Shown piece by piece: positions 6,902 to 46,555 of a stretch of 64,000 nucleotides of DNA. The translations under genes were made by a program, and so were the position numbers. The stretch's first letter is position 1, and the number at the start of each line of letters is the position of its first letter. This DNA is from Hydrogenophilales bacterium (GTDB lineage: Bacteria; Pseudomonadota; Gammaproteobacteria; Burkholderiales; Thiobacillaceae), in the NCBI GenBank assembly GCA_016195805.1, contig JACPYT010000002.1:124001-188000 (forward strand), given 5' to 3'. The notes under the pieces were generated by a model. The model searched no databases, was not told where the DNA came from, and saw nothing but the letters and a program-made list of their open reading frames with translations.

Positions 6902-7752
6902 CGGGAAGTTCCCTGCGGGATGCCTTCAAGGAATTTGAGCGTATGGTCCAGCAAATCGAACTCGTGCTCGCCGTCCATGAAATGGCTGCCCCCATGCACG
7001 ACGACCATGGGAATCTGGATATGCTGCAAGACCTTGAGCCAGCCCTGTCCCAGCAAGCTGTCCGCATCGCCCATGATGAGTTGAACCCTGACCGGTGACT
7101 GCTTCAATGCGGTCAGCACGCTTGGCTGATCCCAACGCACATAGGACAGCAGGTCTTCTGGCGTCGAGGTGTATTTTCTGCAGAAGGACAAGCTCTGGGT
7201 GACCAGGGCACGCCGGTTGTTCCGTATGCGGTCTTCCAACTGGGCGATCAGGATCGGACGAGATGTCGCGCCGACCTGGGCTTCGACCAGCGAAGCGCCG
7301 ATATAGGCTTTGATTGCCGGATCCGGGTGGGTGCTCAGATACACCAGCAACTGCAGACTGCCAAAACTGTGGCCGACCAGCACGATGGAGCGATAGCCCT
7401 GCGATTTCAGCCAGTCCACCCAGTGCCCGATTTCGGCCACATCGTCATCCATGCCGTGTTTGTGCACCGCTTCGCACGCCAGGCTGTGCGTGCGGTTGGG
7501 AATGTTCAGGCTGAGGGTGGGCGACAAGACCGTATAGCCCGCATCCTGCAGGCCGCGGGCCAACGTGGTGACCGTGGGAAATTCGCGCGTCTGCAGAAAA
7601 CCGTGCAGCAGCAGCACGGCGGGTTTGCTGCGCTCGCCGATCAGGTATTCGGCATTGGCGGGGATCCCGGGGCGCATTTCCTGCTGGACGATGGACGCGT
7701 TCGCTGCGACTGGAAATACCGAGATCAGCAAGCAAAGCAGGTAGATGCGCAT
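6898..7752 (-). CDS. Secreted alpha/beta hydrolase (DUF3530-like)
   Basis: A 284-residue alpha/beta-fold hydrolase with a signal peptide (residues 1-19, cleaved near VAANA-SIV), so it should work in the periplasm. The oxyanion motif LLLHGFLQ, the nucleophile elbow GHSFGS and a late Asp/His pair (MGDADSLL and GGSHFMDGEH) give a plausible Ser-Asp-His triad. It resembles the DUF3530 or general lipase/esterase group; the substrate is unknown. It is the first gene of a two-gene operon with the GGDEF-EAL protein (4-bp overlap) and is divergent from the YoaA helicase with a 119-bp intergenic region. A periplasmic esterase coupled to a c-di-GMP sensor protein suggests, but does not prove, a shared role. 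Confidence 0.85.
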   Translation of the reverse strand: MRIYLLCLLISVFPVAANASIVQQEMRPGIPANAEYLIGERSKPAVLLLHGFLQTREFPTVTTLARGLQDAGYTVLSPTLSLNIPNRTHSLACEAVHKHGMDDDVAEIGHWVDWLKSQGYRSIVLVGHSFGSLQLLVYLSTHPDPAIKAYIGASLVEAQVGATSRPILIAQLEDRIRNNRRALVTQSLSFCRKYTSTPEDLLSYVRWDQPSVLTALKQSPVRVQLIMGDADSLLGQGWLKVLQHIQIPMVVVHGGSHFMDGEHEFDLLDHTLKFLEGIPQGTSR

Positions 7753-37304: not shown

Positions 37305-37907
37305 ATGAAACGTTTTGTCATGTTGACCGCGCTTGTTGTCTGTGCAGCGTCTGCCGAAGCTGCACCCGAGACCTATGTCATCGACAACAGCCGTACCACT
37401 TCGCAATTCAGCTATCGCTATCTGGGACTCTCGAACCAGACGCAGCGATTCGAAAAGATCAGCGGTACCGTGGTATTCGATCCCGCCACCCAGTCCGGAT
37501 CGGCCGACGTGACCATCGACGCCACTTCGGTCAACACCGGGCAGACCTTGCTGGATGCACAGATGCGGGCCGCGGATTTCTTCGATACCGCCAACTATCC
37601 CGTGATCACGTTCAAGTCCAGCAAGATGATTCTGAGCGGTGAACAATCGAGCTTGTCGGGCGAACTTACGATCAAGGGCGTGACCCGGCCGGTGACGCTC
37701 GCCGTGACCCACTTCCTGTGCATGCAGGAGCCTTCTTTGCAGGCGGAAACCTGTGGTGCCCAGGCGTCCGTTACGGTCAGGCGCTCGGATTTCAACATGG
37801 GCAAGTATCCCTTCCTCGTCAGCAACGACATCACGTTGAATCTTGCGTTCAAGGCGGTCAAGGCACAGTCTTACATGCAGGTGGCGAGTCGCGATTCTGG
37901 CCGGTAA
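37305..37907 (+). CDS. YceI family periplasmic lipid-binding protein
   Basis: A 200-residue secreted lipocalin-like protein. A signal peptide (residues 1-20, cleaved near AEA-APE) is followed by the YceI beta-barrel with YVIDNSRTTSQFSYRYLGLSNQTQRFEKISGTV, ADFFDTANYPVITFKSSK, LTIKGVTRPVTL and FNMGKYPFLVSNDITLNL. The family binds isoprenoid quinones or fatty amides. ATG 37305 has a good AAGGAG site. The cytochrome b561 gene upstream supports a periplasmic quinone-linked role, and the promoter suggests sigma-54 control. Confidence 0.94.
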   Translation: MKRFVMLTALVVCAASAEAAPETYVIDNSRTTSQFSYRYLGLSNQTQRFEKISGTVVFDPATQSGSADVTIDATSVNTGQTLLDAQMRAADFFDTANYPVITFKSSKMILSGEQSSLSGELTIKGVTRPVTLAVTHFLCMQEPSLQAETCGAQASVTVRRSDFNMGKYPFLVSNDITLNLAFKAVKAQSYMQVASRDSGR

Positions 37908-37945
37908 AAGGGCTAAAATGGCGTTTTGCCGGTCGAAACGCCTCC

Positions 37946-39889
37946 GTGGAATCCCATCAACTCGAACTGCTCGCGCCCGCGCGCGATGCCGACATCGGCA
38001 TCGAAGCCGTCAACCACGGCGCCGATGCGGTGTATATCGGCGGGCCGTCGTTCGGCGCGCGTGCGGCGGCGTCCAACGAGATAGCCGACATCGCGCGGCT
38101 GACGGCGTATGCGCATCGTTTCAATGCGCGCGTGTTCGTCACCCTCAACACCATCCTTGCCGACGACGAGCTGGAACCGGCGCGCCGGCAGATCCATCAG
38201 CTCTACGAGGCCGGGGTCGACGCGCTGATCATCCAGGACATGGGGCTGCTGGAACTCGACCTGCCGCCGATCCAGCTGCACGCCAGCACCCAGACCGACA
38301 TCCGCACGCCGGACAAGGCGCGCTTCCTGCAGGACGTGGGGCTGAGTCAAATCGTGCTGGCGCGCGAGCTCGATCTGAAACAGATCGCCGCAATCCGCGC
38401 TGCCCTGCGGCCCGATACCACGCTGGAATTCTTCGTCCATGGCGCGTTGTGCGTCGCCTACAGCGGCCAGTGCTACATCAGCCACGCTCACACCGGTCGC
38501 AGCGCCAATCGCGGCGACTGCTCGCAGGCCTGCCGCCTGCCGTACCAGGTCACCGACATGGAGGGGCGCATCGTTGCGCACGACAAGCACGTGCTGTCGA
38601 TGAAGGACAACAACCAGAGCGACAACCTCGATGCGCTGATCGACGTCGGCATCCGCAGTTTCAAGATCGAGGGCCGCTACAAGGACATGGGCTACGTGAA
38701 GAACATCACCGCCCATTACCGCACGCTGCTCGACCAGATCATCGAACGCCGCCCGGAATTCGCACGGGCGTCCTCAGGACGCACCACGTTCAACTTCACG
38801 CCCGACCCCAACCAGAACTTCAACCGCGGGTTCACCGACTACTTCGTCGGCGGCCGCCAGGCCGACATCGGCGCGTTCGATACGCCGAAGAACCCCGGCC
38901 TGCCGATCGGCCACGTGACGAAGCTCGGCGACAAGTGGGTGCAACTGGAAACCGACGACCCTGCCACGGTGCTCAACAATGGCGACGGCCTCTGCTACTA
39001 CACCTTGCAGAAGGACCTGGCCGGCCTCGCGATCAACCGGGCAGAGAGGATGGGCGAGGGTGTGTGGCGCGTGTTTCCGAAGGATCCGCTGGCGAGCTTC
39101 AAGGACTTGCGAGCGGGCACGCTGGTCAACCGCAATCGGGACATGAACTGGATGCGCATGCTGGACAAGCCATCCAGCGAACGCCGCATCGGCGTGTGGC
39201 TGAGGCTGGCTGAAACCCCAGAGGGATTTTCACTGACGCTGACGGACGAAGACGGCCACAGCGCAACGGTGAATGCCGTGCACGCCAAGGAGCCGGCCAG
39301 GGAGGCCGCCAAAGCCGAGGCTACCTTGCGCGAGCATCTGGGTAAATTCGGGGCCACGCACTTTGCCCCGATGGGTATCGCGCTGGAGCTGGCACAAGTC
39401 TGGTTCATCCCGGCATCCTTCCTCAATGCCCTGCGCCGCGATGCGGTGGCCGCACTGGACGCCGCCCGATCAGTGGCGTATCGGCGCCCGTCACGCGCGC
39501 AGGCAGTCGAGCCGCCGGCGATTTACCCCGAGGATGCGCTGAGCTATCTGGCCAACGTCTACAACCACAAGGCGCGTGATTTCTACGCGAAACACGGCGT
39601 CAAGGTCATCGCGGCCGCGTACGAAAGCCACGAGGAGACTGGCGAAGTCTCGCTGATGATCACCAAGCACTGCGTGCGCTATTCGCTCTCCCTGTGTCCC
39701 AAGCAGGCCAAGGGCGTCACCGGCGTGCAGGGCACGGTGCGCGCCGCCCCGCTGACGCTGATCAACGGCAGCGAGAAACTCACCCTGCGTTTCGATTGCA
39801 AGCCGTGCGAAATGCACGTGGTAGGGAAACTGAAGCCGGCAGTCGCAAAAAGCAGCGCGCCGATGACGTTCTACAAGACGCGGCCCTGA
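37946..39889 (+). CDS. rlhA: 23S rRNA 5-hydroxycytidine-forming U32 peptidase family protein
   Basis: A 647-residue RlhA (YdcP) protein, which with prephenate-derived metabolites and iron hydroxylates C2501 of 23S rRNA. The sequence follows E. coli YdcP closely: LELLAPARDADIGIEAVNHGADAVYIGGPSFGAR, FFVHGALCVAYSGQCYISHA, GDCSQACRLPY, SFKIEGRYKDMGYVKNITAHYR, and C-terminal KHCVRYSLSLCPKQ and FDCKPCEMHV. The Cys set (GQCYIS, DCSQAC, plus late Cys) fits an iron-sulfur centre. I chose GTG 37946; the longer frame runs through the YceI gene out of phase. It converges with the DUF599 gene. Confidence 0.93.
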   Translation: MESHQLELLAPARDADIGIEAVNHGADAVYIGGPSFGARAAASNEIADIARLTAYAHRFNARVFVTLNTILADDELEPARRQIHQLYEAGVDALIIQDMGLLELDLPPIQLHASTQTDIRTPDKARFLQDVGLSQIVLARELDLKQIAAIRAALRPDTTLEFFVHGALCVAYSGQCYISHAHTGRSANRGDCSQACRLPYQVTDMEGRIVAHDKHVLSMKDNNQSDNLDALIDVGIRSFKIEGRYKDMGYVKNITAHYRTLLDQIIERRPEFARASSGRTTFNFTPDPNQNFNRGFTDYFVGGRQADIGAFDTPKNPGLPIGHVTKLGDKWVQLETDDPATVLNNGDGLCYYTLQKDLAGLAINRAERMGEGVWRVFPKDPLASFKDLRAGTLVNRNRDMNWMRMLDKPSSERRIGVWLRLAETPEGFSLTLTDEDGHSATVNAVHAKEPAREAAKAEATLREHLGKFGATHFAPMGIALELAQVWFIPASFLNALRRDAVAALDAARSVAYRRPSRAQAVEPPAIYPEDALSYLANVYNHKARDFYAKHGVKVIAAAYESHEETGEVSLMITKHCVRYSLSLCPKQAKGVTGVQGTVRAAPLTLINGSEKLTLRFDCKPCEMHVVGKLKPAVAKSSAPMTFYKTRP

Positions 39890-39946: not shown

Positions 39947-40687
39947 TTACTTGGCGTACATGGAAACGACCGGCGGCGCGTTTTGCGACGACGCGGCGGA
40001 TTCGCTTCCGGATTCGCATATCTCCTGGCATTCGCTGCGGTCGAGCCGGTAGAGGGCAAGGACCAGACCGACCGTCGAGATCAGCAGGAAGTAGGGGCCG
40101 AACAGCCAGAACACCATCGGAATGGCGAAAAAGAAGGCCCGCATGCCAATCGCGAACATGTTGCCGGCGCGATTCAAGCGGTGCGCAACCGCCTTCGGCG
40201 ACAGCGTGTGGTGCGTGCCATGTTCCGGCACGTTCACCATGAACAGCACGTGATTGGCCAGCCGCACCGACATGGCGAAGGCGAAGAAGGCGACGATGAA
40301 GGTGACCAGCAGCAGCATGACCTTCAGGATCCACAATTCGGTGGCATGCGAACCGCCGATGCTCAGAACGTGCCAGCTGTGCGAGATGTTTTCGGCCTGG
40401 CCGGACAGCGTTAGCGTGCCGATGATGAGCAGCCCCGCGGTCGAGGCCATGAGGGAGGGGGCCATGATGAAGTTGCGCAGCGTCTGTACCGCCATGATGT
40501 CCTTGGTGGAGTTGCTGCGCATGATGTGTTCCACCCACAGCCTGCGTGCCAGGGCGTTGACGCCGTGGATGCTGTAGGTGGGGTTTTCCCGCACCTTCAT
40601 GTTGAGAAAGAAGTAATAAGCGGCAACGCATGCAGCGCTGATCACGAACGCTACAAGATCGGTTTCAAATTCGGCAAACAATTCCAT
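39947..40687 (-). CDS. DUF599 integral membrane protein
   Basis: A 246-residue protein with about four membrane helices (8-28, about 78-100, 115-140 and 190-215), resembling DUF599 proteins (NPTYSIHGVNALARRLWVEHIMRSNSTKDIMAVQTLRNFIMAPSLMAS and the following TAGLLIIG). Function of the family is unknown. It lies 53 bp after the 64-residue ORF on the same strand with no terminator between, so both should be transcribed from the sigma-54 promoter at 40974-40989. Confidence 0.85.
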   Translation of the reverse strand: MELFAEFETDLVAFVISAACVAAYYFFLNMKVRENPTYSIHGVNALARRLWVEHIMRSNSTKDIMAVQTLRNFIMAPSLMASTAGLLIIGTLTLSGQAENISHSWHVLSIGGSHATELWILKVMLLLVTFIVAFFAFAMSVRLANHVLFMVNVPEHGTHHTLSPKAVAHRLNRAGNMFAIGMRAFFFAIPMVFWLFGPYFLLISTVGLVLALYRLDRSECQEICESGSESAASSQNAPPVVSMYAK

Positions 40688-40740: not shown

Positions 40741-40935
40741 CTAGGCGCCCTGGGCATGCCGGAACGCCGGCGCAGCAGAAGACGTGTCGGCCGTTGCGGA
40801 AACCGATCCGTGCTGGGCCAGGTTGGGGCCTGCAGCAGGGGGGAAGTCGGTCTGGCGCAGCAGGACGTTGAATTCATGCTGGTTGCCGGCATTCGCGAAG
40901 GTCAGGGCATTGAGGATTTTGGTCATAAGCTTCAT
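40741..40935 (-). CDS. Small 64-residue protein behind a sigma-54 promoter
   Basis: ATG 40935, preceded by GAGAAC, opens a 64-residue ORF starting MKLMTKILNALTFANAGNQH; the longer open frame from 41076 would run through the promoter. The first 35 residues look like one amphipathic helix plus a turn, and the rest is Ala/Pro/Ser-rich and probably disordered. No signal peptide or known domain. The main evidence that it is real is the near-consensus -24/-12 element 39 bp upstream and the DUF599 gene in operon downstream. Function unknown; no family recognised. Confidence 0.6.
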   Translation of the reverse strand: MKLMTKILNALTFANAGNQHEFNVLLRQTDFPPAAGPNLAQHGSVSATADTSSAAPAFRHAQGA

Positions 40936-40973
40936 GGCGTTCTCACAATCAGGGTGGTTGTTGCCACTAAAAC

Positions 40974-40989
40974 TGCATATTGCGTGCCA
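40974..40989 (-). promoter_or_regulatory. Sigma-54 (-24/-12) promoter for the small gene and DUF599
   Basis: Read leftward, TGGCACGCAATATGCA matches TGGCACG-N4-TTGCA with one mismatch and keeps GG-N10-GC (GG 40988-40987, GC 40976-40975). Transcription would begin near 40964, about 28 bp before the ATG. Confidence 0.8.
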
Positions 40990-41054
40990 TGTATATAACT
41001 CTATGTTTATAAGGTAATTAATGTTTTTGTGCTTGGGTGTCCAGGTCTTTGCAT

Positions 41055-41069
41055 GTTGCTTAATGCAAC
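41055..41069. promoter_or_regulatory. Activator dyad, site A (GTTGC-N5-GCAAC)
   Basis: GTTGC-TTAAT-GCAAC, a 15-bp perfect dyad centred about 98 bp upstream of the predicted sigma-54 start site, the normal distance for an enhancer-binding protein. Identical in arms and spacing to site B. Confidence 0.6.
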
Positions 41070-41121
41070 GAGTCATTTTGGCTGATGATTTGTAACTTTA
41101 TGTAAACAAAATGAAAAACGA

Positions 41122-41145
41122 GTTGCCGCACGCGGCTGTTGCAAC
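41122..41145. promoter_or_regulatory. Degenerate dyads between sites A and B
   Basis: GTTGC-CGCAC-GCGGC (41122-41136) keeps one full arm of the dyad; GTTGCAAC (41138-41145) has both arms fused without spacer. They may be weaker sites or half-sites for the same regulator. Confidence 0.35.
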
Positions 41146-41156
41146 CTGTGTTATTT

Positions 41157-41171
41157 GTTGCAAATTGCAAC
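41157..41171. promoter_or_regulatory. Activator dyad, site B (GTTGC-N5-GCAAC)
   Basis: GTTGC-AAATT-GCAAC, 102 bp from site A (centre to centre) and directly abutting TATACT (41172-41177), a likely -10 box for the kinase gene. Binding here could repress the kinase-regulator operon while serving as a distal enhancer for the leftward promoter. Confidence 0.6.
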
Positions 41172-41212
41172 TATACTGGGGGTGTTGACGACAACGGCTG
41201 GAGGGTCGATCC

Positions 41213-42730
41213 GTGATGCCTGCAATTCGAGGTGCTTTTCTGCGCCATTCCCTGCGAGGGAAAATCACGCTGGGCTATTACGCGGTGGCGGCGATCATTC
41301 TGGTGGCGTCCCTGTTTTTCGTGGGAGAGTTGCGTACGCTGGAAGCGCGGGTGGTCCTGGGACAGCGCGCTACCGATCTGTTCAACACCGTGCTGGAGAT
41401 ACGCCGGTTCGAGCGCAACTACTTCCTGCACCACCAGGCCGCCGATCTTGAGGAAAACGCGGCGTACATCAAGCTTGCCAAGACCATGCTCACGGACAAT
41501 CGGGCGGACTTCCTGGCGATCGCCACGCCGGCACGCCTGGGTGAATTGCATACGCTCCTCAGCGACTATCAGCAGCAGATGTCGGCCTTCGCTGCCGTCG
41601 AGCCGCCGCCGCTCGAACGGGAGCCCCGGGTGCGTACCCTGGGGCAGGAACTGGTCGCCATCGCCGAGGACATGGCGGGCTCGGAACGGCGCCAGATCCA
41701 GACGACCCTGGCCTCTTTCCGTACGCTGCTGCTGGGCGTCATTCTGAGCATGGCGCTGCTGATCGTGGTCATCGGCCGCGCGCTGTCGCTACGGGTCGTC
41801 AGGCCGCTGAAAGAGATGGAAACCAGCGTGGCGGCGATTTCCGCCAACCGGCGCGAGACGCTGTCCGCACCGTCGGACGATCGCGAGATCCTGTCCATCA
41901 TCACGGCCTTCAACCATATGCTGAAGGAACTGGACCTGCGGCAAAAATCGCTGATGCGCTCGGAGCGGCTGGCCTCGCTGGGCACCATGCTTTCGGGCGT
42001 GGCCCATGAACTGAACAACCCGTTGTCGAACATTTCGACCTCCTGCCAGATCCTGTTGGAAGAAGTCGGCGAGTGCGATGCGGCGACGCAGAAGATGTAT
42101 CTGGCTCAGATCGACCAGCAGACGGAACGGGCGCGCAACATCGTCCGCTCGTTGCTGGATTTCTCCCGCGAACGGGCATTCCGGAAGGAGTCGGTGTTGC
42201 TGAGAGCACTCGTCGCGCAGACGGTCGGCTTCGTGCGCGGCGAAGTGTCGGCCAAGTCGGTGGTGCGCCTGGCCATTCCGGAGGACCTGCGTGTGCTGGC
42301 TGATGCACAGCGCCTGCAGCAGGTATTCGTGAACCTGATTCGCAATGCCATGGAGGGATTGGGTCCGCAGGGGCGAATCGATATTTCTGCGCAGATCGTG
42401 CACGCCAGCGAGCCGCCGGCAGGCACCGCGCTGGGCGAGGGGTGCGAGATGAAAGGGGAAATGGTGGAAATCCTGGTTGCAGACAGCGGGCCGGGCATCG
42501 CGCCGGATATTCTGCCGCGCATTTTCGATCCGTTCTTTACCACCAAGGACGTCGGCCACGGCATGGGGCTGGGGCTGTTCGTCGTGTATGAAATCGTCGA
42601 TGAGCATGGCGGCTGCATTGCCGTGCAGAGCACGCCGGGCCAGGGCGCGACGTTCTGCATCCGTCTGCCGCACGAAGAACGTGGCGCCGGGACCGCGGCC
42701 GGTGCGAGCGGCGACAAGGGAGCGCAATGA
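41213..42730 (+). CDS. Membrane sensor histidine kinase, NtrB-like
   Basis: A 505-residue kinase with two membrane helices (about 18-38 and 171-192) around a helical periplasmic sensor, a HAMP segment (193-245), and a kinase core: His265 in SGVAHELNNPLSNI, N-box NLIRNAMEG, G1 DSGPGI, F-box DPFFTTK and G2 GMGLGLFVV. The HELNNPL box is typical of kinases that pair with sigma-54 activators. The start is GTG 41213 or the adjacent ATG 41216, behind GGAGGG. It overlaps the response-regulator gene by 4 bp. The signal is unknown. Confidence 0.94.
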   Translation: MMPAIRGAFLRHSLRGKITLGYYAVAAIILVASLFFVGELRTLEARVVLGQRATDLFNTVLEIRRFERNYFLHHQAADLEENAAYIKLAKTMLTDNRADFLAIATPARLGELHTLLSDYQQQMSAFAAVEPPPLEREPRVRTLGQELVAIAEDMAGSERRQIQTTLASFRTLLLGVILSMALLIVVIGRALSLRVVRPLKEMETSVAAISANRRETLSAPSDDREILSIITAFNHMLKELDLRQKSLMRSERLASLGTMLSGVAHELNNPLSNISTSCQILLEEVGECDAATQKMYLAQIDQQTERARNIVRSLLDFSRERAFRKESVLLRALVAQTVGFVRGEVSAKSVVRLAIPEDLRVLADAQRLQQVFVNLIRNAMEGLGPQGRIDISAQIVHASEPPAGTALGEGCEMKGEMVEILVADSGPGIAPDILPRIFDPFFTTKDVGHGMGLGLFVVYEIVDEHGGCIAVQSTPGQGATFCIRLPHEERGAGTAAGASGDKGAQ

Positions 42731-44091
42731 TGGAAGCAAGCCTGCTGATCGTGGACGACGAGGAGATCGCATTGCGCAATCTCCAGCATGTGATGGGGAA
42801 GGAGGGTTACCGGGTCACTGCCACCCAGAGTGGCGCGACTGCCGTCTCGCTGCTCGAGTCGCAGCGCTTCGACGTGGTCCTCACCGATCTGCGCATGGAA
42901 GGCGTGGACGGCATGGACGTGCTGAAGAAAAGCCGTGAACTGCAACCGGAGGCTGAAGTCATTTTCATCACCGGCTACGCGACGGCTGAATCCGCCGTGC
43001 AGGCGCTGAAGCACGGCGCGTTCTACTACATCGCCAAACCGTTCCGCCTCGACGAGGTGCGCAAGGTGGTGGCCGAGGCGCTGGAGAAAGTCCGGCTGCG
43101 CCGCGAAAACGACGAATTGCGCCGCGAGGTGGCGGGCTATCGGGAGGGCGAGGGGATCGTCACCCAGGATGTCGAGGTGCAGCGGCTGCTGGACATGGCA
43201 CGGCAGATCGCGCCAACGGACTGCAGCGTGCTCATCACGGGCGAGAGCGGAACCGGCAAGGAGCTGTTTGCAAAATATCTTCACAAGCACAGCACACGGG
43301 CCGCGGGCCCCTACGTCGCGATCAACTGCGGCGCATTCAGCGAGCAATTGCTGGCGAATGAGCTGTTCGGGCATGAGAAAGGCGCGTTTACCGGAGCCGC
43401 CACCCTGAAAAAGGGCCTGATCGAGGTGAGTTCGGGCGGCACGCTGTTTCTCGATGAAGTGACGGAAATGACGCCGTCCATGCAGGTCAAGCTGCTGCGC
43501 GTGCTGCAGGAAAAGGAAGTGTTGCGGGTGGGCGGCACACGGCCGGTGAAGTGCGACGTGCGTGTGCTGGCGGCCACCAATCGCGACGTCAACGAGGCAG
43601 TGAAGAATGGAAGCTTTCGCGAAGACCTCTATTTCCGGCTGAACGTGGTGAATCTGCATATCCCGCCGCTGTCGCAGCGGAAAGGCGATATCCCTCTCCT
43701 TGCACAGCATTTCCTGCTCAAGTACGCGGGCCGGATGAAGAAGCCGGTCACGCGGATCTCCAGCGAGGTGATGGCGCTGCTGGTGGATTACCCGTTTCCC
43801 GGCAATGTTCGCGAACTGGAGAACCTGATCGAGCGGGGCACGGCTATGGCGCAAGGCGACACCATCGAAGCGACGCATCTGCCGGAAACGCTGCAGAAGC
43901 GGGTGGGCTTCGACTTCCGCAAGGTCGGAGGGCGCCTGCCTACGCTGGATGAACAGGAACAAACCTACATCAGCCGGGTACTGGATGAAGTGCAGGGCAA
44001 CCAGACGGCGGCGGCGCAGATTCTCGGCATCAACCGTGCTTCGTTGTGGCGCAAGCTCAAGGCGCGGCGGGGCGAAGGCTCGTCCCAATGA
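42727..44091 (+). CDS. Sigma-54-dependent response regulator, NtrC family
   Basis: A 454-residue activator with a receiver domain (phospho-acceptor Asp54 in VLTDLRMEG, Lys104 in IAKPF), an AAA+ domain with Walker A GESGTGKE (172-179) and the sigma-54 contact loop GAFTGA (219-224), and a C-terminal Fis-type helix-turn-helix (QTAAAQILGINRASLWRKLK). All parts needed to activate a sigma-54 promoter are intact. Translationally coupled to the kinase (4-bp overlap). The candidate binding sites GTTGC-N5-GCAAC lie upstream of the kinase and opposite a sigma-54 promoter. Confidence 0.96.
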   Translation: MMEASLLIVDDEEIALRNLQHVMGKEGYRVTATQSGATAVSLLESQRFDVVLTDLRMEGVDGMDVLKKSRELQPEAEVIFITGYATAESAVQALKHGAFYYIAKPFRLDEVRKVVAEALEKVRLRRENDELRREVAGYREGEGIVTQDVEVQRLLDMARQIAPTDCSVLITGESGTGKELFAKYLHKHSTRAAGPYVAINCGAFSEQLLANELFGHEKGAFTGAATLKKGLIEVSSGGTLFLDEVTEMTPSMQVKLLRVLQEKEVLRVGGTRPVKCDVRVLAATNRDVNEAVKNGSFREDLYFRLNVVNLHIPPLSQRKGDIPLLAQHFLLKYAGRMKKPVTRISSEVMALLVDYPFPGNVRELENLIERGTAMAQGDTIEATHLPETLQKRVGFDFRKVGGRLPTLDEQEQTYISRVLDEVQGNQTAAAQILGINRASLWRKLKARRGEGSSQ

Positions 44092-44134: not shown

Positions 44135-44470
44135 TCAGGCGCTTCGACCTGGCAGGTCCTGTGCCAGTTTCTGCATGAATGCGGTGTGTCGAGCCTCGGC
44201 TTTTTGATACGCGGCGATGAGCTGCTCGGCATCGGGCGTAAGCCGGCTGCCGGCCGGGTCACTGGCAACCAGCGGGATGCCCCAGGCCGAATTCATCGCA
44301 TCCACTGCGTCCCACGCGGCCTTGTAGCTCATCTTCATCGTCTTGGCGGCCTTCGAGATGGAGCCGGTTTCACGAATGCGCTGCAGCAGTTCGACGCGCC
44401 CCCGGCCGAGAAAGTTCTTGCCATCCAGCGTCAGCCAGAAACGGCCATCTGCCCTGAGTTGCGTGTCCAT
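44135..44470 (-). CDS. Single-domain ModE-like regulator
   Basis: A 111-residue winged-helix protein matching the DNA-binding half of ModE: LGRGRVELLQRIRETGSISKAAKTMKMSYKAAWDAVDAMN aligns well with the E. coli ModE helix-turn-helix (GSISxxAKxxxxSYKxAWDA). The molybdate-binding MOP domains are absent and the wing is short. ATG 44470 is preferred to the upstream ATG 44494. Such short proteins may bind DNA without sensing molybdate directly or may work with a second protein. The ModE-box-like site at 33705-33730 is a plausible target. It converges on the response-regulator gene. Confidence 0.85.
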   Translation of the reverse strand: MDTQLRADGRFWLTLDGKNFLGRGRVELLQRIRETGSISKAAKTMKMSYKAAWDAVDAMNSAWGIPLVASDPAGSRLTPDAEQLIAAYQKAEARHTAFMQKLAQDLPGRSA

Positions 44471-44551
44471 GCGGCGAGTGTAGCAAACGACCATTGCGGT
44501 TCGACCACGCGCGGCAGAAAATCACGGTTTGCAATATTTCAGGAGAGCCCC

Positions 44552-45115: not shown

Positions 45116-45490
45116 ATGACTGCCTTCCTCGCCATTGGCCTCGGCGCGGCCATCGGCGCCTGGCTGCGCTGGGGCTTTGGGTTGTGGCTGAACCCGATCT
45201 ACCCTGCGATGCCGCTCGGCACGCTGGCCGCGAACCTGATCGGCGGCTATGTCATCGGCCTGTCGATCGCATGGTTTTCCGAACACCCCGGGCTGCCGCC
45301 GGAAGCGCGGCTGTTCATGATCACCGGCCTGCTCGGCGGCCTCACCACCTTTTCCACGTTCTCCGCCGAAGTCGTCACCGCGCTGATGCGCGGCCTCTGG
45401 ATGACCGGCGGCCTGATTGCCCTGACCCACATGACCGGTTCCTTCCTTGCTACCGCGCTGGGGTTTTATACGATGAGGTTCTTCAAATGA
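45116..45490 (+). CDS. crcB: Fluoride exporter CrcB (Fluc)
   Basis: A 124-residue, four-helix dual-topology fluoride channel. Family motifs [27 protein letters not shown] and the phenylalanine-box region [16 protein letters not shown] are intact. It overlaps the DUF190 gene by 4 bp, an association seen widely. The 105 bp upstream hold a short GC hairpin (45083-45099) but not a convincing fluoride riboswitch. Confidence 0.95.
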
Positions 45491-45798
45491 ACGTTGTCTG
45501 CCTGCAGGTGTTTGTGTCCGAAGCCAGCCGCCATCACGGCAAACTGACCTATGAGTGGTTGCTCGACGCCGCGCAGGGGCTTGGCATCACGGGCGGCTCG
45601 GCGTTTGGCACGTTGGCCGGATTTGGCCGTCACAGCCGCCACGACGCGGGCTTTTTCGAATTGGCGGGCGAGTTGCCGGTGGTGGTCGAGTTCTTCGTCG
45701 AGGCGGCGATCGCTGATCAGTTGCTGAAAGTCATTTCCGACGCCGGGCTGAAACTGGTTTACGCCAAACTGCCGGCCGAACTCGGCGTCACCTCCTGA
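45487..45798 (+). CDS. DUF190 protein (PII-like fold)
   Basis: A 103-residue cytosolic protein of the DUF190 family, starting [30 protein letters not shown] with [15 protein letters not shown] and [16 protein letters not shown] motifs. DUF190 proteins resemble PII signal proteins and usually sit beside crcB, perhaps as a regulator. Coupled to crcB through ATGA; the TauE/SafE gene follows 7 bp downstream. Confidence 0.9.
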
Positions 45799-45805
45799 TT
45801 CCGTC

Positions 45806-46555
45806 GTGCTCGACCAGATCGTCCTGTTTGCCGCCTCGCTGACGGCAAACTTCTTCTCGGCCCTGTCCGGCGGCGGCGCCGGCCTGATCCAGTTTCCCAT
45901 CCTGATCTTTCTCGGGCTGCCCTTCGGCGTGGCGCTGGCCACGCACAAGATCGCCAGCGTCTCGCTCGGTCTGGGCGCCACGCTCAGGCACCTGAAGACA
46001 TCGCATCTCGAACGCCGTTTCTCGCTGATCATCCTGGGTGCGGGACTGCCGGGCGTGGTGCTGGGTGCAATGACGATCCTGCATATCCCCGAGCGTATTG
46101 CCACCCTGGCGCTGGGTGTCCTGACGCTGGGGCTCGGCCTGTATTCGGTGTTCAGGCCCACGCTCGGCATGGAACACCTGCCCCGGAACCAGCAGGGTGC
46201 CGCGCTCGTCGGCGGCATGGCGGGCCTCTTCGTCGTCGGCTTTCTCAACGGCTCGATCACCAGCGGTACCGGGCTCTTTCTGACTGTCTGGCTGATCCGC
46301 TGGTTCGGCCTCGATTACACCCGCGCGGTGGCCTATACGCTGATCCTCTGTGGGCTGGTCTGGAACGGTACCGGTGCGCTGGTGCTGGGCGTGATCGGGA
46401 CCGTGGCGTGGGGCTGGATGCCGGCGCTGCTGGCGGGCTCGATCCTCGGCGGCTACCTCGGCAGCCACCTCGCCATCCGCAAAGGCAATCTGTGGATCAA
46501 GCGGTCGTTCGAGATCGTGACGATCCTGATCGGGCTGAAGCTGATCGTCGGTTAG
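45806..46555 (+). CDS. TauE/SafE family permease
   Basis: A 249-residue membrane protein with about seven to eight helices and the family repeats GGGAGLIQFPILIFLGLPFGVALATHKIAS and NGSITSGTGLFLTVWLIRWFGLDYTRAVAYTL. Members move sulfite, sulfonates or other anions, but the substrate is not readable from sequence. GTG start 45806. It ends the crcB-DUF190-TauE string and converges on the response-regulator GGDEF gene. Confidence 0.9.
   Translation: MLDQIVLFAASLTANFFSALSGGGAGLIQFPILIFLGLPFGVALATHKIASVSLGLGATLRHLKTSHLERRFSLIILGAGLPGVVLGAMTILHIPERIATLALGVLTLGLGLYSVFRPTLGMEHLPRNQQGAALVGGMAGLFVVGFLNGSITSGTGLFLTVWLIRWFGLDYTRAVAYTLILCGLVWNGTGALVLGVIGTVAWGWMPALLAGSILGGYLGSHLAIRKGNLWIKRSFEIVTILIGLKLIVG

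Follow-up and report, generated by a model that had tools for sequence, protein, structure and literature searches.

The 64,000-nucleotide stretch of a Hydrogenophilales genome analysed here (the window; positions 124,001 to 188,000 of contig JACPYT010000002.1) carries what is probably a dedicated two-component circuit with a single target, in which a membrane-bound histidine kinase and an NtrC-type activator would control a sigma-54 promoter in front of two divergently oriented genes. The first of these is a 64-residue open reading frame (ORF), named FAN in the following, and the second encodes a membrane protein of the DUF599 family. The circuit is best read as a reduced member of a wider family of kinase–activator pairs encoded at inorganic-anion transport genes, a reading to which we assign a probability of roughly 0.65. 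An initial annotation had described the two small-operon genes behind a one-mismatch sigma-54 box, the divergent kinase and activator with their key residues intact, and two dyads of the form GTTGC-N5-GCAAC, one of them abutting the −10 box of the kinase gene. Each of these elements was found in place:

39947–40687, minus strand: DUF599 membrane protein of 246 residues, EdgA-related (PF04654, E 5.6e-63)
40741–40935, minus strand: FAN, 64 residues, the leading gene downstream of the sigma-54 box
40974–40989, minus strand: −24/−12 sigma-54 box TGGCACGCAATATGCA, one mismatch to the consensus
41055–41069: dyad 1, GTTGCTTAATGCAAC, exact, centred at −99; candidate activator site for the FAN-DUF599 promoter
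41157–41171: dyad 2, GTTGCAAATTGCAAC, exact, centred at −201 and abutting TATACT; candidate autoregulatory site
41172–41177, plus strand: TATACT, a −10-like box for the kinase gene, directly behind dyad 2
41213–42730, plus strand: histidine kinase of 505 residues with HAMP, HisKA and HATPase_c domains (Pfam)
42727–44091, plus strand: NtrC-type response regulator of 454 residues with receiver, Sigma54_activat and Fis-type helix-turn-helix domains (Pfam)

The dyad centres, placed at about 98 and 200 bp by the initial annotation, are reckoned with the GC of the box set at −13/−12; FAN begins 28 nt past the start site predicted in this way and is followed after a 53-bp gap by the DUF599 gene, which lies outside the span originally annotated (40741–44091). 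The reading frames of kinase and activator share four bases. Two membrane segments of the kinase (residues 18–36 and 169–187) flank a periplasmic domain of about 130 residues, and the activator retains Asp54 (within LTDLR), the Walker A motif GESGTGKE at 172 and GAFTGA at 219. The genome holds one rpoN gene, as judged by a single Sigma54_DBD match. The abutment of TATACT and a dyad is shared by the window and ten close relatives (L097–L106).

By the statistics of the window, neither the box nor a dyad with one mismatch allowed stands out: the sigma-54 box pattern has 13 matches at two mismatches or fewer (two of them with one mismatch) versus 9.7 expected, and three dyads with up to one mismatch were found versus 3.9 expected. 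The exact dyads do stand out. Across the 2.96-Mb genome, the exact dyad occurs three times, twice at this locus at a distance of 102 bp and once inside a 572-residue ORF. When one mismatch is allowed and the core is left free, the genome has 108 dyads versus 62 for a reversed control pattern; when the core is restricted to A and T, three dyads with at most one mismatch remain, two of them at the locus, and the control yields none. Both exact A/T-core dyads of the genome lie at this locus, which argues for a single-target circuit and led to the rejection of a multi-target regulon. The notion of a chance promoter box was likewise rejected, in this case on its conservation in relatives, and it is the conservation of box and dyads that removes the remaining doubt that these elements exceed chance.

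The small protein is found in 18 of 100 genomes, including the window's own, all from one genus, and a profile built on it reaches 26 of 149 genomes, extending to four further genera of the family and to one other family. In all of the first 18 loci, the kinase and DUF599 genes lie beside the small ORF, in a comparison of the kind that the initial annotation had asked for. Named records (Thiobacillus thioparus DSM 505 and metagenome-assembled Thiobacillus genomes) place the window, which comes from a sulfur-oxidising bacterium of this type, within Thiobacillus or beside it. Across the genus, represented by 36 genomes (G000–G035), a close kinase (at least 76% identity), FAN (E ≤ 1e-20) and DUF599 occur together in the same 12 genomes and are all absent from the remaining 24, an absence that is not certain in every case because several of the genomes are incomplete (70–90%). 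Twelve of the 24 circuit-free genomes have a distant kinase homologue (30–43% identity, or a partial match at 38%), and one of them (G004) shows a weak match to the small ORF at the head of a longer protein (E 9.6e-4). This all-or-none co-occurrence, together with the near-restriction of A/T-core dyads to the locus, supports the description of the circuit as a dedicated one. Loss of the dyads and the −24/−12 element in relatives had been set beforehand as the outcome that would speak against it; in close relatives both are conserved.

What goes beyond the initial annotation is the family in which this circuit is embedded. Homologues of the kinase sensor occur in 61 of the 149 genomes, and a search of named genomes returned 211 stretches with kinase relatives, and the analysis continued with the best 80 (L097–L176). 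By their record titles, these include Sulfuricella, Sulfuritalea, Rhodocyclaceae, Gallionellaceae and Nitrospirae as well as Thiobacillus thioparus DSM 505 (L105), a cultured relative with an intact circuit. Outside the group in which DUF599 is the only labelled target, the flanks of 58 loci hold SulP in 44 (with hits of 237–307 residues only in six of them, namely L157, L161, L165, L166, L172 and L175), universal-stress-protein-like (USP-like) genes in 18 (a weak label, resting on 3loq at E 0.0026 in one group and 1jmv at E 0.22 in the other), Hyf-like subunits in 16, TauE/SafE in nine, a hexapeptide protein in six (labelled gamma-carbonic-anhydrase-like on its hexapeptide repeats), DUF599 in four and DabA in three (L149, L159 and L170, by similarity to a 70-residue fragment matching PF10070). 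SulP or TauE is present in 46 of the 58, a count in which six loci with TauE about 3.4–6.4 kb away past another gene (L140, L141, L153, L156, L173 and L174) are scored as having neither. Neighbour labels were assigned by blastp to self-labelled clusters, and for SulP, DUF599, TauE, NuoL/HyfB and HyfC, examples of each type were compared with Pfam; the HyfE example gave no Pfam hit at E ≤ 1e-5, and HyfE and HyfF are names that we presume to apply. At Nitrospirota-type loci (L140, L141, L153, L156, L161, L165, L172 and others), TauE, a small membrane protein (cluster c23) and often a USP-like block lie near the kinase, and the dyad before the kinase is retained as GTTGCTTTTTGCAAT or a similar sequence.

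The window's kinase and activator, encoded in one operon, are homologous to this SulP-, Hyf- and TauE-linked family and belong to it; the divergent operon consists of FAN and DUF599 only, with no SulP, TauE or Hyf-like gene. A quick, midpoint-rooted tree built on 79 kinases (L155 and L176 were excluded since their kinases are cut short) unites the 23 DUF599-only loci in a single clade with a Shimodaira–Hasegawa-like approximate likelihood-ratio (SH-aLRT) support of 99. Two labels were set by hand, L107 as DUF599-only after the operon rule had missed its DUF599 gene and L119 as DUF599 plus SulP. The latter, a metagenome-assembled genome of the Rhodocyclaceae, is the sister of the clade and carries on a single strand, in this order, FAN, DUF599, SulP, HyfB, HyfC, HyfE and HyfF. 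A separate sigma-54 box, TGGCACGGCATCTGCT at 6996–6981, precedes its SulP gene, with dyads centred 273 bp (exact) and 71 bp (one mismatch) upstream of this box, so that L119 gives the appearance of two neighbouring units, each under the control of the activator. In L160, too, a SulP gene is preceded by a box and, 83 bp upstream, by a dyad, and DUF599 adjoins SulP in L129, L151 and L154 as well. The window's genome has one SulP gene, located on another contig (L179:7298–16000; C1 near 210 kb) in a cluster with the gamma-carbonic-anhydrase-like hexapeptide gene, HyfB, HyfC, HyfE, HyfF and a gene resembling the complex-I 30-kDa subunit. On the simplest reading of this distribution, FAN-DUF599 stayed with its regulator in the window's lineage and the transporter unit beside it was lost, a direction of change that stays provisional because the tree search was quick and the root was placed at the midpoint.

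The identity of the DUF599 protein lends a second line of support. Its assignment to PF04654 is firm (212.6 bits versus a gathering threshold of 27), and its structural model, built from 23 sequences with a mean predicted local distance difference test (pLDDT) score of 70.7, consists of long membrane-type helices. A gene of the DUF599 family, edgA, was mutated alongside clcA, secY and besA in Methylobacterium adapting to dichloromethane, and its authors regard EdgA as likely to act in chloride export (PMC4271186). This published hint, likewise absent from the initial annotation, and the SulP, TauE, Hyf and DabA genes that surround the family's kinases together favour small-anion transport, the substrate of which would be bicarbonate, chloride or a sulfur oxyanion. 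SulP transporters handle a variety of compounds (PMC10880623); in Thiomicrospira pelophila, SulP-CS and DAC act on inorganic carbon and rescued Escherichia coli devoid of carbonic anhydrases, whereas the other SulP and the Chr of this species failed to do so (PMC12628692).

The same neighbourhood can be viewed differently, namely as the product of repeated target swapping around a dedicated circuit that answers to the envelope, the membrane potential or the redox state and has no part in anion transport. Such an account would sit well with an operon that has no known transporter throughout the window's clade, with target labels that change 22 times for six groups on the tree and with a DUF599 transport activity that is itself putative. 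It leaves unexplained why SulP or TauE recurs at such a large share of the other loci and why DUF599 adjoins SulP at four of them (L119, L129, L151 and L154), and it runs counter to the chloride-export role that the authors of the EdgA study propose (PMC4271186). On balance, we consider it rather unlikely.

FAN itself has no family in Pfam, NCBIfam or PHROGs, and its first 33 residues or so are conserved (ILNALxFANVxNLxEFxxLLRQ). It precedes the kinase at E < 1e-3 in all 22 loci from L097 to L118 and in 10 of the 19 from L119 to L137, where it mostly stands ahead of SulP rather than DUF599. A FAN-like helix also heads a protein of 171–231 residues in six loci (L066, L089, L090, L093, L094 and L096), the second part of which bears a weak likeness to universal stress proteins (3loq, E 0.0026); this longer protein is possibly a fused form of FAN. 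A fold could not be drawn from the structural model, in which two short helices are predicted at low confidence (pLDDT 58.9), and the best hit of a profile search of the PDB had an E-value of 2.5. A phage origin was dismissed as well, no PHROG match having been found and, with an approximate query sequence, no relative on viral contigs.

These features bear on whether the 64 codons encode a functional protein at all or instead mark a leader or small RNA region, with DUF599 as the only product that matters. The weak model, the missing family match and a poorly constrained C-terminal half, for which the ratio of nonsynonymous to synonymous polymorphism (pN/pS) is 0.79, would be expected of such a region. 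Constraint at the protein level in the N-terminal third (pN/pS 0.46; both values from 91 non-independent pairs) argues for a translated product, as do the recurrence of the motif beyond the closest loci, mostly before SulP, and its place at the head of longer proteins at the same position elsewhere. An RNA element was rejected, with no Rfam match at the gathering threshold, and a noncoding role for the FAN region thus appears distinctly improbable.

Turning to the operator, the family provides counts that far exceed those of resampled sequence. On the divergent strand, 56 of 80 loci have a sigma-54 box with a score of 19 or more out of 22, compared with 3 of 80 on the other strand and 3.7 expected; 79 regions contain 83 dyads with at most one mismatch, where 1.7 would be expected; in 19 loci two dyads are spaced 95–112 bp apart, a pairing that no shuffle produced; and 69 of 81 loci, in Betaproteobacteria and Nitrospirota alike, carry a dyad at the kinase start (at most one mismatch), versus 0.69 expected. 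The denominators, which include the window, differ owing to short flanks, and the expectations stem from first-order Markov resamplings that ignore relatedness. Within the DUF599-only clade, all 23 loci score at least 17 for the divergent box, and 16 have two dyads with at most one mismatch about 100 bp apart. The weakest box, that of L111, scores 17, which roughly one in three shuffled regions attains as well. The recognition helix of the activator contains SLWRKLK in 57 of the 58 activators extracted, the remaining one being cut short. Taken together, the box and dyad counts, the kinase-start dyads and this shared helix point to the adjacent activator as the likeliest protein to bind the dyads, as supported by phylogenetic footprinting across two phyla, with putative autoregulation at the kinase gene and activation at the sigma-54 promoter.

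Several observations weigh against the reading of the window as a reduced member of an anion-transport family. Seven of the 23 clade loci have one dyad (four loci) or none (three loci). SulP is encoded in all 36 genomes of the genus (55–100% identity), whether the circuit is present or not, and the SulP–Hyf cluster of the window's own genome has neither a dyad nor a sigma-54 box by strict patterns. Among 28 SulP genes located away from the kinase, three have a dyad (0.1 expected) and four a strong box (1.45 expected). Of the 18 loci in the TauE and unlabelled groups, which are largely Nitrospirota, 8 have a box that scores 17 or more; given that 32% of shuffled regions do so too, a divergent sigma-54 promoter is unsupported in these groups. 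Finally, a known fold for DUF599 had to be rejected, as Foldseek returned no PDB match at E ≤ 0.001 and the best PDB sequence had an E-value of 0.15.

That the dyads serve some regulator other than the adjacent activator, to which binding is assigned by comparison and which the seven clade loci short of one or both dyads might suggest, is very improbable, for the dyads track the kinase–activator family across Betaproteobacteria and Nitrospirota and are nearly limited, in their A/T-core form, to this locus in the genome, as expected for a regulator encoded next door.

On the reading we prefer, that of a dedicated circuit derived from an anion-transport family, the kinase would sense a periplasmic or membrane cue and phosphorylate the activator at Asp54. 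The activator would bind the GTTGCAWWWTGCAAC dyads, switching on the presumably RpoN-dependent promoter of FAN-DUF599 from the dyad at −99 and controlling its own operon from the dyad abutting the kinase −10 box. The task of DUF599 in the membrane would then be to handle a small anion, and FAN would act as a short helical protein that partners or regulates this transporter. SulP and a Hyf-like complex, whose genes lie elsewhere in the window's genome, would be further targets of the activator in relatives. A bolder version, which we offer tentatively and with the odds against it, would see here an undescribed sigma-54 two-component family, with the operator GTTGCAWWWTGCAAC, in charge of the transport of inorganic anions or inorganic carbon both in sulfur-oxidising Betaproteobacteria and, under another arrangement of the promoter, in Nitrospirota, FAN (free or fused to a USP-like part) being a transporter-associated regulator and DUF599 a small-anion channel or carrier in a SulP/Hyf pathway.

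The surroundings of the circuit include further genes. Downstream of the activator and outside the divergent operon, a plus-strand group at 45116–46555 encodes CrcB (PF02537), DUF190 and TauE/SafE, the last at 45806–46555, and the CrcB and TauE/SafE clusters (c22 and c8) recur at about the same place in several loci of the genus. CrcB is a fluoride channel family, and a second small-anion gene group thus adjoins the circuit. The activator is also adjoined by a 119-residue helix-turn-helix protein of the LysR/ModE N-terminal type (44135–44494, minus strand) that stays under the NCBIfam ModE cut-off. Past DUF599 lies a long ORF (37718–39889, plus strand) whose cluster adjoins DUF599 in many loci of the genus and which is presumably a U32-type peptidase.

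If correct, the preferred reading would supply a regulator and a precise operator for the sensing and control of inorganic-carbon or sulfur-anion transport in chemolithoautotrophs outside the cyanobacteria, with T. thioparus DSM 505 as a cultured carrier of the intact circuit in which to pursue this question. It would also open an entry to two protein families that have no function to their name, DUF599 and the FAN peptide, at whose role the relatives of the switch beside bicarbonate- or sulfate-type ion transporters hint.

NtrC-type two-component control as such is well known, and the new elements are the family in which the circuit is set, the operator and a hypothesis on what two orphan proteins do. 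The circuit resembles NtrB/NtrC, AtoS/AtoC, ZraS/ZraR and PrsK/PrsR in its receiver with the acceptor Asp, its AAA+ domain with Walker A and GAFTGA, its Fis-type helix-turn-helix and its HAMP/HisKA/HATPase kinase, and it shares with NtrC-type systems the upstream dyads and the predicted −24/−12 promoter in a genome that encodes rpoN. The activator scores below the NCBIfam cut-off of each named equivalog (AtoC, 455.7 versus 714; NtrC, 404.2 versus 558.6; PrsR, 382 versus 502.6; ZraR, 375.9 versus 760), and its operator and targets presumably differ from those of all four. No earlier report of sigma-54 control of SulP or dissolved inorganic carbon genes was found in the open-licence PMC literature, and the text of PMC12628692 contains none of the words sigma, two-component, histidine kinase and regulator. 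Likeness to EdgA of Methylobacterium, whose activity is putative, consists in common membership of PF04654, and the available passages of PMC4271186 describe no sigma-54 circuit for it. As for the SulP/DAC (DabA-DabB) systems, relatives of the kinase and activator adjoin SulP, DabA, NuoL/HyfB-like and gamma-carbonic-anhydrase-like hexapeptide genes, whereas the window's operon comprises none of these and its TauE/SafE gene follows further downstream at 45806.

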